Made by a program: the position numbers and the translations under genes. A stretch of DNA of 27,566 nucleotides, taken from the IMG/VR virus record IMGVR_UViG_3300038701_001483, positions 1 to 27,566 of that record; one strand, written 5' to 3'. Below, piece after piece: positions 5,564-10,471 of the stretch. The notes beneath the pieces were generated by a model. The model was given only the letters and a program-made list of their open reading frames with translations, searched no databases and was not told the origin of the DNA. Each line of letters begins with the position of its first letter. The stretch's first letter is position 1. This DNA is from a virus.

Positions 5564-5958
5564 ATGACTTCGCCCACCTCGACACGCCGCCCGATCCCTG
5601 CACCATCGTGCTGCCGTTTCCGCCTGCGACCCTTTCCGGCCATGCGAAGGGGCACTGGCGGTCGAAGCATGGGCCGACCAAGCAATGGCGCGAGCGTGCT
5701 GCGAAAAAGGCCGCTGCGCTTTGCCTGCCCGATCTGGGCGATGCGAAGCCCTACGAGCCGGGCGGCGACATTCGGCTGCGGATTACGTTCGTGCCGCCCG
5801 ACCGGCGCGGTGATCGGGTCAACTTCCCGAACCGCATGAAGCCGATCTTCGACGGCATTGCCGACGCGCTGGGCGTGAACGACGCGCGGTTCGTTCCAAT
5901 CCTCGACTATCGCCCGCCGCAAAAGCCGGGCTGGGTTGCAATCGAGGTGATCCCATGA
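5560..5958 (+). CDS. RusA-like Holliday junction resolvase
   Basis: 132 residues of the RusA family, which cuts Holliday junctions during phage recombination and replication. The diagnostic block is at about 82-111, RRGDRVNFPNRMKPIFDGI then ADALGVNDARF. It has the expected acidic residues (D85, D98, D108) and the basic residue of the active site (K94). The usual D-x-D-N motif reads D-R-V-N here, so the second aspartate appears replaced. GTG 5560 is in frame with GGAG eight bases upstream and overlaps the previous TGA; ATG 5564 is out of frame. The stop overlaps the next gene by ATGA. Confidence 0.88.
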   Translation: MNDFAHLDTPPDPCTIVLPFPPATLSGHAKGHWRSKHGPTKQWRERAAKKAAALCLPDLGDAKPYEPGGDIRLRITFVPPDRRGDRVNFPNRMKPIFDGIADALGVNDARFVPILDYRPPQKPGWVAIEVIP

Positions 5959-6623
5959 GCGAGCCTGTAATCATCGGCAACGCGACCCTGTATTTGGGCT
6001 CGTGCGAGGACATTCTCCCGACGCTGCCCCGCGCTGACGCGGTTGTTACCGACCCGCCTTATGGGATTGGGGCGTATTCTAGCGGCACAATGGGCGGGGG
6101 GGTGTTGGCTGCCCAATCAAAATATGACGCAACCAGTTGGGACAGTAACCCGCTTGCGCCTGAATTGCTCGCCTTGGTTCGCAATTCGGCCCATTGGCAG
6201 ATAATCTTCGGTGGCAACTATTACGATTGTCCCGCTGCAAAGTGCTGGCTGATTTGGGATAAGGTCAACGGCAACAACAACTTCGCCGATTGCGAAATGG
6301 CATGGACAAACCTGCCAAAAGCCGCCCGCCTGATCCGGTATATGTGGCACGGGATGCTGCGGGAAAAGGGCGCACAACGCGGCGACCATCCCACGCAAAA
6401 GCCTGTCGAGGTCATGAAGTGGTGCATCGGCCACCTGCCAAACCCCGCCGAGACAATCCTAGACCCCTTTATGGGCTCCGGCACCACTGGTGTCGCCGCG
6501 CTTCAGATTGGCCGCAAGTTCATCGGCATTGAGCGCGAGCCGAAGTATTTCGAGGCAGCCTGCCGCCGCATTCGCGAAACGTCCGGCGAGGACGCTGGCC
6601 CACTGTTCGGGAGCGCCGCATGA
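5955..6623 (+). CDS. DNA adenine (N6) methyltransferase, DPPY type
   Basis: 222 residues of a site-specific amino-methyltransferase. The catalytic motif DPPYGIG (33-39) precedes the SAM-binding motif DPFMGSGTTG (170-179), the permuted beta-class order. HPTQKPVEVMKWCI lies just before the SAM motif. DPPY favours N6-adenine over N4-cytosine, but the target sequence cannot be read. At 222 residues it is compact, with a short target-recognition region between motifs. It probably modifies phage DNA against host restriction or alters regulation. No cognate nuclease is adjacent. Coupled by ATGA on both sides. Confidence 0.94.
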   Translation: MSEPVIIGNATLYLGSCEDILPTLPRADAVVTDPPYGIGAYSSGTMGGGVLAAQSKYDATSWDSNPLAPELLALVRNSAHWQIIFGGNYYDCPAAKCWLIWDKVNGNNNFADCEMAWTNLPKAARLIRYMWHGMLREKGAQRGDHPTQKPVEVMKWCIGHLPNPAETILDPFMGSGTTGVAALQIGRKFIGIEREPKYFEAACRRIRETSGEDAGPLFGSAA

Positions 6624-6781
6624 CCGCCCGCCCCTTCATCGACCCGGCGCGCGCGCTGATCCGGGCAATCGTCGATGCGCAGCCGACGCCGGAAAAGCGG
6701 CTTGAGTTCGCAGAGATCGCGCACCAGCACGGGCACATCGGCGACGACACGCTGGCCCGGTATGAACGGGAGGTGGCATAG
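6620..6781 (+). CDS. Small hypothetical protein (53 aa)
   Basis: 53 residues: MTARPFIDPARALIRAIVDAQ, then PTPEKRLEFAEIAHQHGHIG and DDTLARYEREVA. A compact helical protein, coupled to the adenine methyltransferase by ATGA. Its TAG (6779-6781) shares the G with the GTG of the next gene. The end of this gene also carries the GGGAGG that serves the two overlapping downstream starts. Family unknown. Confidence 0.65.
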   Translation: MTARPFIDPARALIRAIVDAQPTPEKRLEFAEIAHQHGHIGDDTLARYEREVA

Positions 6782-6785
6782 TGTG
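6768..6785 (+). promoter_or_regulatory. One ribosome-binding site serving two overlapping GTG starts
   Basis: GGGAGG (6768-6773) is followed by TGGCATA and then GTGTGG. The first GTG (6781) opens the MWLYVP frame and the second (6783) opens the methyltransferase frame, at 7 and 9 bases spacing. The preceding gene's stop shares base 6781. Confidence 0.6.
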
Positions 6786-8097
6786 GCTCTACGTCCCGAA
6801 CATCGCGTGCGAAACATCCTGTCCCTGTGCGCAGGCGTCGGAGGGCTTGAACTCGGCGTGCAGCTCGCTCTCGACCGTCTCGGAGAGGCTGGCCGAGGGG
6901 TCTGTTACGTGGAGAGGGAAGCCGCAGCCGCCGCAAGCTTGGTCGCGTCGATGGAAGCAGGGTGGTTTCATCCGGCTCCTGTCTGGTCTGACATGCTCAC
7001 CTTCGACGCTCGACCGTGGCGTGGCCTTGTTCATATCCTCGCTTCGGGAGACCCATGCCAAGACAATTCCGTCGCCGGAAAGCGCGCCGGGGCCGATGGT
7101 GAGCGCTTTCTCGCCGCCGAGGTCTGCCGGCTTGCCGCCGAGTGCCGGCCTGATGTTGTGTTCAGAGAGAACGTGCCGGGGAACGCGGACGGACAGCTCG
7201 GAGCCATCGTCCCGGCACTGGAAGGACTGGGCTACCGCGTTGCGAGCGGAATATTCTCGTCGGCCGAAACCGGCAACACCATGCGGCGCGAGCGACTGTT
7301 CATCATGGCCGAGCGCGTCGACGCGCGACTTCCACGCGCAGGGGGCGACCTGCAACAAAGAAGCGTCGGCGGAGAGCTTGGCGAGCTTTGTGCAGAACCA
7401 ATGGGCCGCGCCGAGATGCAACGACCCGGAGAAGCGGGGGCAGATTTCGGACGATCCGCGCAACGGACTGGCGGGGCAAGGCGAGCATCGGGAAGCCCCC
7501 TCGGTCGCGGTGACGGACGGCACCCGGATGACGCGCGGCGGGGCGAGGTCGGACGAATTGCTTCTGACCGGGCAGGCAGTGGAGACTTCGCAGAAGTGGT
7601 CCAGCCCGAAGGCGTCGGGCCCGGAGAAGGCTGGCCCGAACATGCGGGGCAGCAAGGGCGACGTGCCGTTGCCGGGACAGGCGGCGAGTTGGCCGGGGCC
7701 GGATGCGAACGTGATGAACGACGGGGAAGACCCGGCGACATGGAAAGCGCGGGCAGCGCGGTTGAAGGCCAAACATGGCAACGGCAACGGAGCGGGGATG
7801 CCGCTGGCAGTGGCCTCGGCGGATTGGGTCGACCATTGCCTCCCGCCGTCATCCCCGGCCCCAGCGACCTTCGATGGATCGAAGTCCTCGACCGCTTCCC
7901 CGAACTCCAACCAGCCCTCAGCCAAGAGGAAGCTGAATCCCATCTTCGTAGAGGCATTGATGCGATGGCCCACAGGGTTGAGCGGCTTCGAGCGACAGGA
8001 AACGGCGTGGACCCGGTGGTGGCAGCTACAGCGTTCCTATCTCTCGGCGCTCGATTGGGGATCATCCGAGGAGGCGCAGCATGACCTCTTCGCTTAA
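6781..8097 (+). CDS. Overlapping-frame phage protein (MWLYVP... ...QHDLFA), nested with the C5 methyltransferase
   Basis: 438 residues from GTG 6781, reading in a different frame across the whole C5-methyltransferase gene. It begins MWLYVPNIACETSCP. The first half is Ser/Arg/Pro-rich (SERTCRGTRTDSSEPSSRHW, EYSRRPKPATPCGASDCSSWPS). The middle is ordinary-looking and G/C-third-position rich (WPGPDANVMNDGEDPATWK, HGNGNGAGMPL). The end reads KLNPIFVEALMRWP (384-397) then EEAQHDLFA. From memory this architecture recurs in alphaproteobacterial phage proteins annotated as hypothetical or methylase-related, arguing that it is translated. Between about 7330 and 7830 this frame looks more gene-like than the methyltransferase frame. 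GGGAGG lies seven bases before the GTG. Function unknown. Confidence 0.72.
   Translation: MWLYVPNIACETSCPCAQASEGLNSACSSLSTVSERLAEGSVTWRGKPQPPQAWSRRWKQGGFIRLLSGLTCSPSTLDRGVALFISSLRETHAKTIPSPESAPGPMVSAFSPPRSAGLPPSAGLMLCSERTCRGTRTDSSEPSSRHWKDWATALRAEYSRRPKPATPCGASDCSSWPSASTRDFHAQGATCNKEASAESLASFVQNQWAAPRCNDPEKRGQISDDPRNGLAGQGEHREAPSVAVTDGTRMTRGGARSDELLLTGQAVETSQKWSSPKASGPEKAGPNMRGSKGDVPLPGQAASWPGPDANVMNDGEDPATWKARAARLKAKHGNGNGAGMPLAVASADWVDHCLPPSSPAPATFDGSKSSTASPNSNQPSAKRKLNPIFVEALMRWPTGLSGFERQETAWTRWWQLQRSYLSALDWGSSEEAQHDLFA
6783..8084 (+). CDS. DNA (cytosine-5) methyltransferase
   Basis: 433 residues from GTG 6783. Motifs in order: SAM loop CAGVGG (16-21), CYVERE (41-46), catalytic PCQ in SGDPCQDNS (88-96), ENV (129-131), RRERLF (168-173) and the C-terminal RATGNGVDP (403-411). 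These are the C5-methyltransferase motifs I, II, IV, VI, VIII and X. The region between VIII and X, where the target-recognition domain sits, is Gly/Arg/Ala-rich and low in complexity. It appears dictated by the overlapping frame. ATG 6762 is an alternative start without a Shine-Dalgarno. GTG 6783 uses GGGAGG nine bases upstream. The stop overlaps the primase-helicase start (ATGA). Likely protects phage DNA. Confidence 0.85.
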   Translation: MALRPEHRVRNILSLCAGVGGLELGVQLALDRLGEAGRGVCYVEREAAAAASLVASMEAGWFHPAPVWSDMLTFDARPWRGLVHILASGDPCQDNSVAGKRAGADGERFLAAEVCRLAAECRPDVVFRENVPGNADGQLGAIVPALEGLGYRVASGIFSSAETGNTMRRERLFIMAERVDARLPRAGGDLQQRSVGGELGELCAEPMGRAEMQRPGEAGADFGRSAQRTGGARRASGSPLGRGDGRHPDDARRGEVGRIASDRAGSGDFAEVVQPEGVGPGEGWPEHAGQQGRRAVAGTGGELAGAGCERDERRGRPGDMESAGSAVEGQTWQRQRSGDAAGSGLGGLGRPLPPAVIPGPSDLRWIEVLDRFPELQPALSQEEAESHLRRGIDAMAHRVERLRATGNGVDPVVAATAFLSLGARLGIIRGGAA

Positions 8098-10471
8098 GCC
8101 CGACATCGGCCAGGAATGGCACGGTCGCGCAATCGTGACCTTTGCAGGTGCGCGCGATACACACGCGGTTACGATCAGGCGCGACGGGCAGGACGCGCCG
8201 AACCCGCACTCATCCGCCGGGCAGCCCTACGACACGCTCGCCCTGCGCGACATCTTCACGATGGAGCCGGGCGCTGCCTCCAAGATGGAGGGATTGGCCT
8301 GCATCCCGTCGATCTATGCCGAGCACGACGCGCGCGCTCACAAGGTCCAGCAGGAGCATGGTGCATTCGTCGCGCTTGCGGCCGACATCGACACCGGCAA
8401 CGCCTCGCTCGACACGGTGCGCGGCGTCGTCGAAGGCGTGGTCAAGGACGCGGCGTGGCTGGTCTATTCCAGCGCGCACGCCTGCCCCGGCGACATGCGC
8501 TGGCGCGTCATCATCCCGACGCACCGCTATTTGCCGTTCGAAGTCTGGAACGATGCGCAGAACGCGCTGTTTCGCATCCTCGAACGGTTCGGGCTGGAAT
8601 GCGACCGCGCCCTCGAACGAGCCGGGCAGCCGGTCTACCTGCCCAATGTCCCCGATCATCACGAGAAGACCGGCGAAATGCTGCGCGATGAAAGCGGCAA
8701 GCCCCGCTTCTTTGCGCGCGCCACGTCCGGCCTCGACAAGCCCGCGCTCGACATCGCTGCCGGAATCTTCGCCGAGGAGATCGCCCTCATCAAGCGCGAG
8801 CGCGAAGCCGACGAACGCGAGCGGGCAAGGCTGCGCGCCGAGGCCGAGCAGCGCCGGACGAACCGCGCGCACAGCGACGGGGGCTCGATCATCGACGAGT
8901 TCAACCTGAACAATTCCGTCGCCGACCTGCTCCAGCTTTACGGCTACGAGCAGTGCCCGCGCAACGGCGACGACTGGCGATCCCCGATGCAGACAAGCGG
9001 TTCCTATGCGACCCGCGTCATCGGCGACAAGTGGGTCAGCCTGTCGGCTTCCGACGCTGCATCCGGCGTCGGGCAGTCCTGCCGTGCCGGGTGCTATGGC
9101 GATGCCTACGACCTGTTCCTGCATTTCGAGCACCAGGGCGACCAGAAAAGCGCATTTCGCCAGCTCTACGCCGAGCGCCGCGCGACTGCGCCCACCCCGC
9201 CCCCGCCGCCCGTGCAAACGGATGACCCGGGCTGGACCGAGCCGCCCGAGGGGCCCGACCCCGAACAGGAGCCGGAGATCGTGCCGGATTTCATCGACGA
9301 GCCTGAAAGCGAGACCGACCCGCTCGGATTCGACATCACCGAATGGTCATCCGACCGGTTCCAGGGCAGCGCCCCGCCAATCGAGTGGCTGTGCCAGAAC
9401 ACCATCCCGCAGGGCGTCCCGGCGCTGTTTGCGGCGCTTGGCGGCATCGGCAAGAGCTTCATCGCGCTCGATCTTGCGCTGGAGATAGCAGCCGAGATCA
9501 CCAGTGGTTCATCGCGGCGCATCCTTGGCGGCGAAGTCGTCGCGCGCGGTTCGGTGGTCGTCCTGAGTGCCGAGGACAGCAAGGACAGCATCCATCGCCG
9601 CTTGGAAAAGATCGACCCGGGCGGGCGGCGCGAAGCCGCACAAGGCCGCGTGTTCGTCGTGCCGCTGCCCGAAGTCGGTGGGCCGATGCCGCTGGTATCC
9701 GGCGACCGCGGGGAAATGCGCCGGACCGACAAGTTCGACGCGCTGCTCAACCAGCTTCGCCGCATCCCCGACCTGCGCCTTGTCATCATTGATCCGCTGC
9801 AGGCGTTCGTCACTGCCGACATCACCAAGGATCCGGCCGCCGGGCAGTTCATGTGGTCGTCGTTCGCGCAGATATGCGCCGAAACCGGGGCCAGCGTGAT
9901 TGCCTGCCACCACATGCGCAAGGAAGGCATGTCGAAGATCGACAGCTCCGACGCGGCACGTGAGGCAATCCGAGGCTCGACCGCCCTCATCGACGGCGCA
10001 CGTGCCACCTATGCCCTGTGGGGCGCAGGCGAGGACGACAGCCGCCGTATCTGCCAGGAGCTTGGCGTCGAACACCAGCCCAAGCGGGTCATAAACGGCG
10101 CGGTCGTCAAGTCGAACGACGAGCACGATTGGGAGGTTCACACCTACCTGCGCGCCGAGTCCGGCCTGCTCGAGGATTGCAGCGAAGGCGTGCGCGAATT
10201 GAAGAATGCGACGGGCAGGCTGACCGCTGCGCAGGAAGGCGAAGTGTTCGAGGAAATCGCCCGGCGGTGGGAGCAGGGCAACCCGTTCAGCGCCTCTGCC
10301 AATGCGCGCGCACGGTTCCTTCCAAACTGGCTCCGACAGGAGTTCGGCATCGGCAAAAAGGCCGCGTCAGACCACCTCGACGAATGGATGATTGGCGGAA
10401 AACTGGCCTCCGAAATGTGCGACAAGCACCGCAATCTGATCGGGTTGAAGGTGGCAAAATGGCCGAATTAG
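8081..10471 (+). CDS. Primase-helicase (AEP-like/zinc-finger N-terminus, RecA-like AAA ATPase C-terminus)
   Basis: 796 residues, the main replication protein. The N-terminal part (about 80-210) has ALAADIDTGN and DMRWRVIIPTHRYLPF, features of phage archaeo-eukaryotic-type primases. Around 285-365 is a CHC2-like region (EQCPRNGDDWRSP, CRAGCYGDAYDLFLHF). A Pro/Glu-rich linker follows (370-420). The C-terminal RepA/AAA_25-type ATPase has Walker A GGIGKS (454-459), Walker B LVIIDPL (about 568-574), then ACHHMRKEG and RGSTALIDGARATYAL. The last about 90 residues look like a winged-helix DNA-binding tail. ATG 8081 overlaps the methyltransferase stop. A cluster of iteron-like repeats follows directly and could be its origin. 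Predicted role: origin opening, unwinding and primer synthesis. Confidence 0.88.
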   Translation: MTSSLKPDIGQEWHGRAIVTFAGARDTHAVTIRRDGQDAPNPHSSAGQPYDTLALRDIFTMEPGAASKMEGLACIPSIYAEHDARAHKVQQEHGAFVALAADIDTGNASLDTVRGVVEGVVKDAAWLVYSSAHACPGDMRWRVIIPTHRYLPFEVWNDAQNALFRILERFGLECDRALERAGQPVYLPNVPDHHEKTGEMLRDESGKPRFFARATSGLDKPALDIAAGIFAEEIALIKREREADERERARLRAEAEQRRTNRAHSDGGSIIDEFNLNNSVADLLQLYGYEQCPRNGDDWRSPMQTSGSYATRVIGDKWVSLSASDAASGVGQSCRAGCYGDAYDLFLHFEHQGDQKSAFRQLYAERRATAPTPPPPPVQTDDPGWTEPPEGPDPEQEPEIVPDFIDEPESETDPLGFDITEWSSDRFQGSAPPIEWLCQNTIPQGVPALFAALGGIGKSFIALDLALEIAAEITSGSSRRILGGEVVARGSVVVLSAEDSKDSIHRRLEKIDPGGRREAAQGRVFVVPLPEVGGPMPLVSGDRGEMRRTDKFDALLNQLRRIPDLRLVIIDPLQAFVTADITKDPAAGQFMWSSFAQICAETGASVIACHHMRKEGMSKIDSSDAAREAIRGSTALIDGARATYALWGAGEDDSRRICQELGVEHQPKRVINGAVVKSNDEHDWEVHTYLRAESGLLEDCSEGVRELKNATGRLTAAQEGEVFEEIARRWEQGNPFSASANARARFLPNWLRQEFGIGKKAASDHLDEWMIGGKLASEMCDKHRNLIGLKVAKWPN

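Follow-up and report, generated by a model that had tools for sequence, protein, structure and literature searches.

A phage C5-cytosine methyltransferase most likely split between two overlapping reading frames, with the predicted specificity subunit overprinted on the catalytic subunit

Introduction

How can two long reading frames share 1.3 kb of the same DNA strand, and what would such a pair encode? The question is raised by a window of 27,566 nucleotides (27.6 kb; the whole stretch of DNA analyzed here) from the virus record IMGVR_UViG_3300038701_001483, which carries tailed-phage genes (terminase, portal, head, head closure, primase/helicase and RusA). Between the genes at 5955-6623 and 8081-10471 lie two long + strand open reading frames (ORFs) in different frames, here called F0 and F1. 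The initial annotation had described them as two long same-strand frames with starts two bases apart, and both are open as described. In our view, the pair most likely encodes a split anti-restriction methyltransferase, probably with several specificities, in which the specificity subunit, with its target-recognition domain (TRD) cassettes, is overprinted on the catalytic subunit. The genes concerned are:

5955-6623: amino-methyltransferase-like gene (PHROG_67), just upstream of the F0/F1 pair
6620-6781, + strand: short ORF ahead of the pair, with its stop overlapping the F1 start
6781-8097, + strand: F1, predicted specificity subunit (N-terminal extension, TRD cassettes, motif IX, C-terminal helix), in the +1 frame
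6783-8084, + strand: F0, predicted catalytic subunit of a C5-cytosine DNA methyltransferase (motifs I-VIII, linker, motif X; PF00145, Foldseek)
8081-10471: primase/helicase gene, downstream of the F0/F1 pair

Results

F1 runs from a GTG at 6781 to a stop at 8097 (438 aa), whereas the F0 frame can be opened from as early as 6675, with GTG 6783 as its likeliest start, judged from homologues, and its stop at 8084. Read in the +1 frame relative to F0, F1 begins before F0 and ends after it, and so encloses it completely. The median overlap of the two frames across distinct loci is about 1.1 kb. At the downstream end (8081-8097), the ATG of the next gene (8081) precedes the ends of both F0 (8084) and F1 (8097), and a few bases are read in three frames. 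The two starts lie within one feature:

6768-6785, + strand: shared initiation site (sequence, and a survey of start codons and Shine-Dalgarno sequences in 150 distinct loci)

Here GGGAGG (6768-6773) is followed by TAGTGTG, such that the TAG stop of the upstream ORF (6779-6781), the GTG of F1 (6781-6783) and the GTG of F0 (6783-6785) all overlap one another (GGGAGGTGGCATAGTGTGG), and translational coupling of the short upstream ORF to F1 is possible. Of the 150 distinct loci surveyed, 142 have an F0 start codon between -7 and +8 nt from that of F1, typically as ATGTGG (F1 ATG, with the F0 GTG two bases later) or as ATGACNTGG (F0 five bases later), and 101 show a Shine-Dalgarno-like sequence ahead of the F1 start, vs 25 of 150 at control sites.

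Homologues were collected separately with F0 and with F1 as the query, and profiles of both ends of each frame (F0N, F0C, F1N, F1C) were used to assign the frames at each locus. F0N and F0C shared one frame, with F1N and F1C together in the +1 frame, at 219 of 230 loci. After removal of duplicates, 151 of 155 distinct loci had no stop in F1 across the F0 core (open fraction 0.974), when permutation of synonymous codons within each F0 predicts an open F1 in 10.6%; the +2 frame of the same loci averages 10.8 stops. The overlap is thus the long case of same-strand overprinting proposed in the initial annotation. A search for homologues whose second frame is regularly broken, the pattern that would speak against it, yielded none, with F1 being stop-free in 99 of the 101 distinct homologues chosen by F0 alone (+2 frame, 0/101). 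Over the catalytic-domain part only, F1 was open in 153/154 loci vs 28% expected by permutation, and in 23/23 vs 5-8% among loci below 62% GC. For this window by itself, the +1 frame stays open in 1.0% of permutations of the synonymous F0 codons (mean 3.3 stops), a figure that taken alone would be no more than suggestive, because permuted codons in the middle of F0 never yield a +1 stop.

Selection is also visible in the pattern of divergence. Third positions of F0 are the most variable in 6813-7316, and those of F1 in 7317-7835 and 7917-7991, which bears out the earlier view of F1 as the constrained frame at about 7330-7830; constraint on both frames at both ends of the overlap, also claimed then, is supported as well. 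In the F1 N-terminal region, the +1 translations of distant relatives are more similar (BLOSUM 0.94) than those of permuted codons (0.24), with the excess concentrated in motifs such as RLSGL and WISSL. The +2 control of the same region is likewise in excess (0.44 vs 0.08), so that shared ancestry accounts for some of the F1 N-terminal signal, the +1 excess being about twice that of +2. Compared with neighboring genes, synonymous change was modestly suppressed, a result given little weight because the control set was contaminated by spurious frames. The F0/F1 overlap is real and under selection, and F1 is almost certainly a genuine coding sequence. A frame error or frameshifted pseudogene was also considered and rejected, with both frames intact in some 150 distinct loci. 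Two loci, L016 (2468-3641) and L107, were set aside as exceptions: a mid-gene indel shifts both of their frames, in L016 such that the F1 N-terminus runs on into the frame of motif X, and could be either an assembly error or a real rearrangement.

F0 comprises the following parts:

6813-7313, + strand: motifs I-VIII, SAM-binding catalytic domain (F0N HMM, residues 11-177)
7338-7829, + strand: linker, residues 186-349, no TRD (AlphaFold2 pLDDT about 40 throughout)
7986-8057, + strand: motif X (RLRATGNGVDP...) and C-terminal helix (sequence, AlphaFold2)

Its match to PF00145 (E=7e-20) covers the N-terminal part only (profile positions 2-166 of 324), and includes the core of a C5-methyltransferase, i.e. 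motif I, PCQ (IV), ENV (VI) and RxR (VIII) in one fold, an assignment supported further by invariant columns; the TRD and motif IX, which a complete enzyme would have in the same chain, are both located in F1. The AlphaFold2 model is confident at residues 8-185 (pLDDT mostly >90) and again at the motif X helix (residues 411-425, pLDDT about 95), where GNGVDP at about 7998 agrees with the motif X already recognized near the F0 end, and the intervening 164 residues of linker are predicted to be disordered. The best PDB matches of the model by Foldseek are M.HhaI and M.HaeIII (E~1e-12). From sequence and model, F0 is a predicted C5-cytosine DNA methyltransferase catalytic subunit, with a linker that we regard as a by-product of the F1 cassettes. 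The initial annotation had placed a specificity region in F0, as the by-product of another gene, and had made F1 a separate gene that writes it; neither part is supported, as F0 has a predicted disordered linker there instead of a TRD, and F1 itself carries the TRD cassettes and motif IX.

F1 can be divided into four parts:

6781-7308, + strand: N-terminal part, overprinted on the catalytic domain (excess +1 similarity over synonymous permutation)
7402-7830, + strand: array of four cassettes, aa 208-233, 240-270, 272-305 and 304-350 (cassette HMM and family-wide cassette analysis)
7927-7983, + strand: motif IX (RKLNPIFVEALMRWPTGLS; motif IX HMM, 1e-11)
7996-8058, + strand: C-terminal helix over F0 motif X (AlphaFold2 helix 406-426, block pLDDT about 69-82)

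Searches of F1 against Pfam gave no match, and it matches PHROG_27243 (4e-11), with relatives that match PHROG_1008, labelled 'DNA methyltransferase'. Modeled alone with AlphaFold2, F1 is poor (mean pLDDT 56), and is confident only in motif IX, the C-terminal helix and one N-terminal helix; Foldseek found no fold with this poor model, and the TRD assignment therefore rests on sequence homology and position. For a subunit that folds on its partner, a poor monomer model would come as no surprise, yet it is no evidence for such folding. Conserved motifs mark the N-terminal part (MWLYVP, WRGK, RLSGL, PSTxxxGVAxWISSL), whose 176 residues have no counterpart in single-chain methyltransferases. It may serve as an assembly tether, act as an independent domain, or largely reflect the cost of starting F1 at a shared site, although the last reading leaves these motifs unexplained. 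Two other likenesses were rejected. A profile comparison of F1 with F0 gave no match that would make F1 a duplicate of F0. A stretch at about 6980-7080 (residues ~67-100; PSTxxxGVAxWIASLRASRA) resembles MS2-type coat proteins (APSNFANGVAEWISSNSRSQA) in a PDB search with the F1 profile, via this one short motif, scoring E 1.4e-5 against a duplicated chain and about 0.02-0.08 against the majority of single copies; this likeness is probably due to chance.

Between the N-terminal part and motif IX, F1 proteins carry repeated cassettes with the consensus WPTPrAsDG....RGG...G..L..QA, with a median length of 31 aa and mostly 3-5 per protein across the family. In the F1 of this window only the third cassette is individually strong with the cassette HMM (6e-5), and the first is marginal (0.16). 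Family-wide, 44 cassette types occur in at least three loci, and 36 of the 44 at two or more ordinal positions. Shared cassettes are often closer in DNA than the catalytic regions of the same phages (nucleotide identity 0.84 vs 0.71 for type I; no difference for type F). F1 thus has several tandem, exchangeable units between the positions of motifs VIII and IX, where recognition units would be expected, and the simplest reading of these sequences is a shuffled set of target-recognition cassettes. Phages differ in their cassettes and in cassette order, hence the enzyme probably methylates several targets.

The conserved motifs of a single enzyme are divided between the two frames. The motif IX pattern was found in F1 at 148 of 154 loci and in F0 at none (0/154), and the motif X pattern in F0 at 135 of 154 loci and in F1 at none. 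In addition, Mycobacterium phage McProf gp6 is a single-chain relative with all pieces in order: F0N (6-184), a cassette (288-312; 1e-3), motif IX (391-407; 1e-9) and motif X (410-438; 2.5e-5), so that parts of F1 are homologous to parts of a single-chain enzyme. Variants move the borders between the chains. In L136/L141 (51% GC), eight stops interrupt F0 from motif VIII to motif X while F1 remains whole, and an ATG preceded by AGGAGG opens the motif X segment separately, giving three chains rather than two; the stops show that the middle of F0 is dispensable. In L028, F0 ends before motif X, which F1 carries right after motif IX (C-terminus at PF00145 positions 273-313 of 324, 2.6e-4; TIGR00675 277-319). 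These variants shift the borders yet keep the full motif set, as is expected if the pieces form one enzyme. A different change was seen in two loci (L002:3715-4212 and L017:3754-4212), where an HNH homing-endonuclease-like ORF is inserted inside F0 motif X, which gives F0 a replacement C-terminus (ITAAYAFL / VTAAYAYL), and F1 reads across the insertion without a stop (615 aa); a displaced F1 tail was considered for this segment and rejected in favor of the inserted ORF.

The ends of the second frame had been attributed to alphaproteobacterial phages, which is right as far as it goes, and too narrow, because the host range found is wider. Other carriers of the pair, either phages or genomes, come from Acidovorax, Synechococcus, Microcystis, Paenibacillus, Acinetobacter, Escherichia and Mucilaginibacter. 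Distant low-GC members keep the +1 pair, e.g. Paenibacillus phage Leyra (46%), Acinetobacter phage ABMM1 (49%), an A. baumannii plasmid (45%), Mucilaginibacter (46%), and the Escherichia phages ESSI2_ev129 and K1ind1 (54%), and in these distant members (45-54% GC) a stop closes the F1 frame a few codons before its start. A survey of 198 Bacteroidota genomes with PHROG_1008 matched the seed genome only, meaning that either the profile is too narrow or the system is rare in Bacteroidota. Public records treat the pair unevenly. Synechococcus phage Ssp-JY39 has F1 alone annotated and its relative Yong-M2-251 F0 alone; OM868082.1 and PP438429.1 (L244, L031) are inconsistent as to which frame is called. 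In Acidovorax phage Alfacinha3 (OP131587.1, L029), F1 is named a cytosine-specific methyltransferase and the catalytic frame is unannotated. Both ORFs are annotated, as overlapping 'DNA methyltransferase' pairs, in Paenibacillus phage Leyra (gp61/gp62) and Escherichia phage K1ind1 (gp32/gp33).

Discussion

Taken together, F0 and F1 very probably constitute one split methyltransferase, with F1 as its recognition half, and other explanations have to account for the same conserved frames, divided motifs and cassette mosaic. That F1 is a spurious GC-rich ORF and F0 the sole gene has some initial appeal, as long +1 ORFs arise easily at 65-70% GC, and codon permutation in mid-window, as noted, never closes the frame. 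Nevertheless, F1 is open in nearly all loci chosen by F0, is also open in members with 45-54% GC, and is the intact frame in L136/L141, where F0 is the broken one, which leaves this explanation a negligible probability. A separate F1 protein, e.g. a methyltransferase partner or an anti-defense protein unrelated to target recognition, would fit an N-terminal part that has conserved motifs and no single-chain counterpart, together with the lack of a known fold. Yet motif IX and the cassettes are homologous to the single-chain enzyme and are exactly what F0 lacks, and we consider such a protein very improbable. Only slightly less improbable is a programmed frameshift, in which translation would start in F0, shift to F1 after motif VIII and produce one long chain, with the F1 start unused. 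Motifs I-VIII from F0 followed by cassettes and motif IX from F1 would give a near-canonical chain comparable to McProf gp6, and the motif borders suit a switch near 7313-7330. Such a switch does not need F1 to be open over the catalytic domain, as it is at all but one locus, nor a conserved F1 start with its Shine-Dalgarno-like sequence; moreover, F1 of the distant members has its own start just past an in-frame stop, and the fused chain would lose motif X. As the sole mode of expression, frameshifting is therefore disfavored.

Within the split-enzyme reading, the array probably confers several specificities, and a sub-case in which the cassettes form one composite recognition surface, or are mostly non-specific, is unlikely. 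The TRDs of Bacillus phage enzymes are about 38-40 aa long, and the shorter cassettes of F1 speak for this sub-case. Against it, phages differ in how many cassettes they carry and in what order, a shuffling that independent units would be expected to show, and phage enzymes with tandem TRDs are known (PMC8936443).

Under the split-enzyme model, F0 would provide SAM binding and catalysis (motifs I-VIII), and would deliver motif X via its long disordered linker, while F1 would recognize DNA through target-recognition cassettes of ~31 residues followed by motif IX. One Shine-Dalgarno site would load ribosomes, which could initiate at either of the adjacent start codons, so that both chains would come from one message and could assemble as they emerge. 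The F0 sequence beneath the cassettes would have no recognition role, and need only remain open to reach motif X. Methylation of several targets would protect phage DNA from host restriction, and the amino-type methyltransferase gene at 5955-6623 next to the F0/F1 pair suggests a phage anti-restriction cluster. A broader proposal is more tentative: that this is a widespread phage class in which exchangeable recognition cassettes overprint the catalytic gene, specificity evolves by shuffling, and the F1 N-terminus is a functional domain tying assembly to twin-start translation; as a whole we lean slightly towards doubting it.

Split C5-methyltransferases are already known, namely M.EcoHK31I and M.AquI, of which M.EcoHK31I (YGGCCR) is the nearest known kind. 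Its small-subunit gene reportedly lies inside the large-subunit gene in another frame, an arrangement that F0 and F1 share. Its large subunit carries motifs I-VIII and X and its small subunit motif IX, which is the division found here, but its TRD is predicted in the large subunit (PMC3404938), in contrast to the cassette array in our second frame. With the cassettes in F1, the pair is a variant of the M.EcoHK31I type and not a plain member. Here, the second gene also covers the whole first gene, starting two bases before it, and belongs to a phage, whereas M.EcoHK31I is a host restriction system. M.AquI (CYCGRG) is an alpha/beta split C5-methyltransferase with its motifs divided between two subunits (PMC3404938); L028 is divided likewise, its second chain holding both IX and X, but the large subunit of M.AquI also contains some of the variable region, and its small subunit carries X. 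Multi-specific C5-methyltransferases of the Bacillus phages SPR, SPbeta, phi3T and H2 contain tandem target-recognition domains (PMC8936443). These are single chains, unlike the present array in a second frame and chain, for which multi-specificity is predicted. The pairs of Leyra and K1ind1 have the same +1 nesting and the same motif division as F0/F1, but a shorter F1 that begins inside F0 (184 and 88 nt in, respectively).

The literature searched contained no account of a phage overlap or double coding of the F0/F1 type. What is new is the complete overlap with overlapping starts, the recognition array in the second frame, the shuffled cassettes, the variants in which motif X changes place, and the wide range of phages. 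To our knowledge, the F0/F1 overlap is among the longest same-strand overlaps outside small viruses, and the deep record of phage alignments makes frame-specific selection measurable on it. Since databases call one frame or the other, half of the enzyme is routinely missed, and such one-frame annotation makes many phage methyltransferases look as if they had no recognition domain. A split, cassette-built specificity subunit would help to reprogram cytosine methylation, and for the phages themselves the F0/F1 design suggests an economical route to change their protection from restriction.
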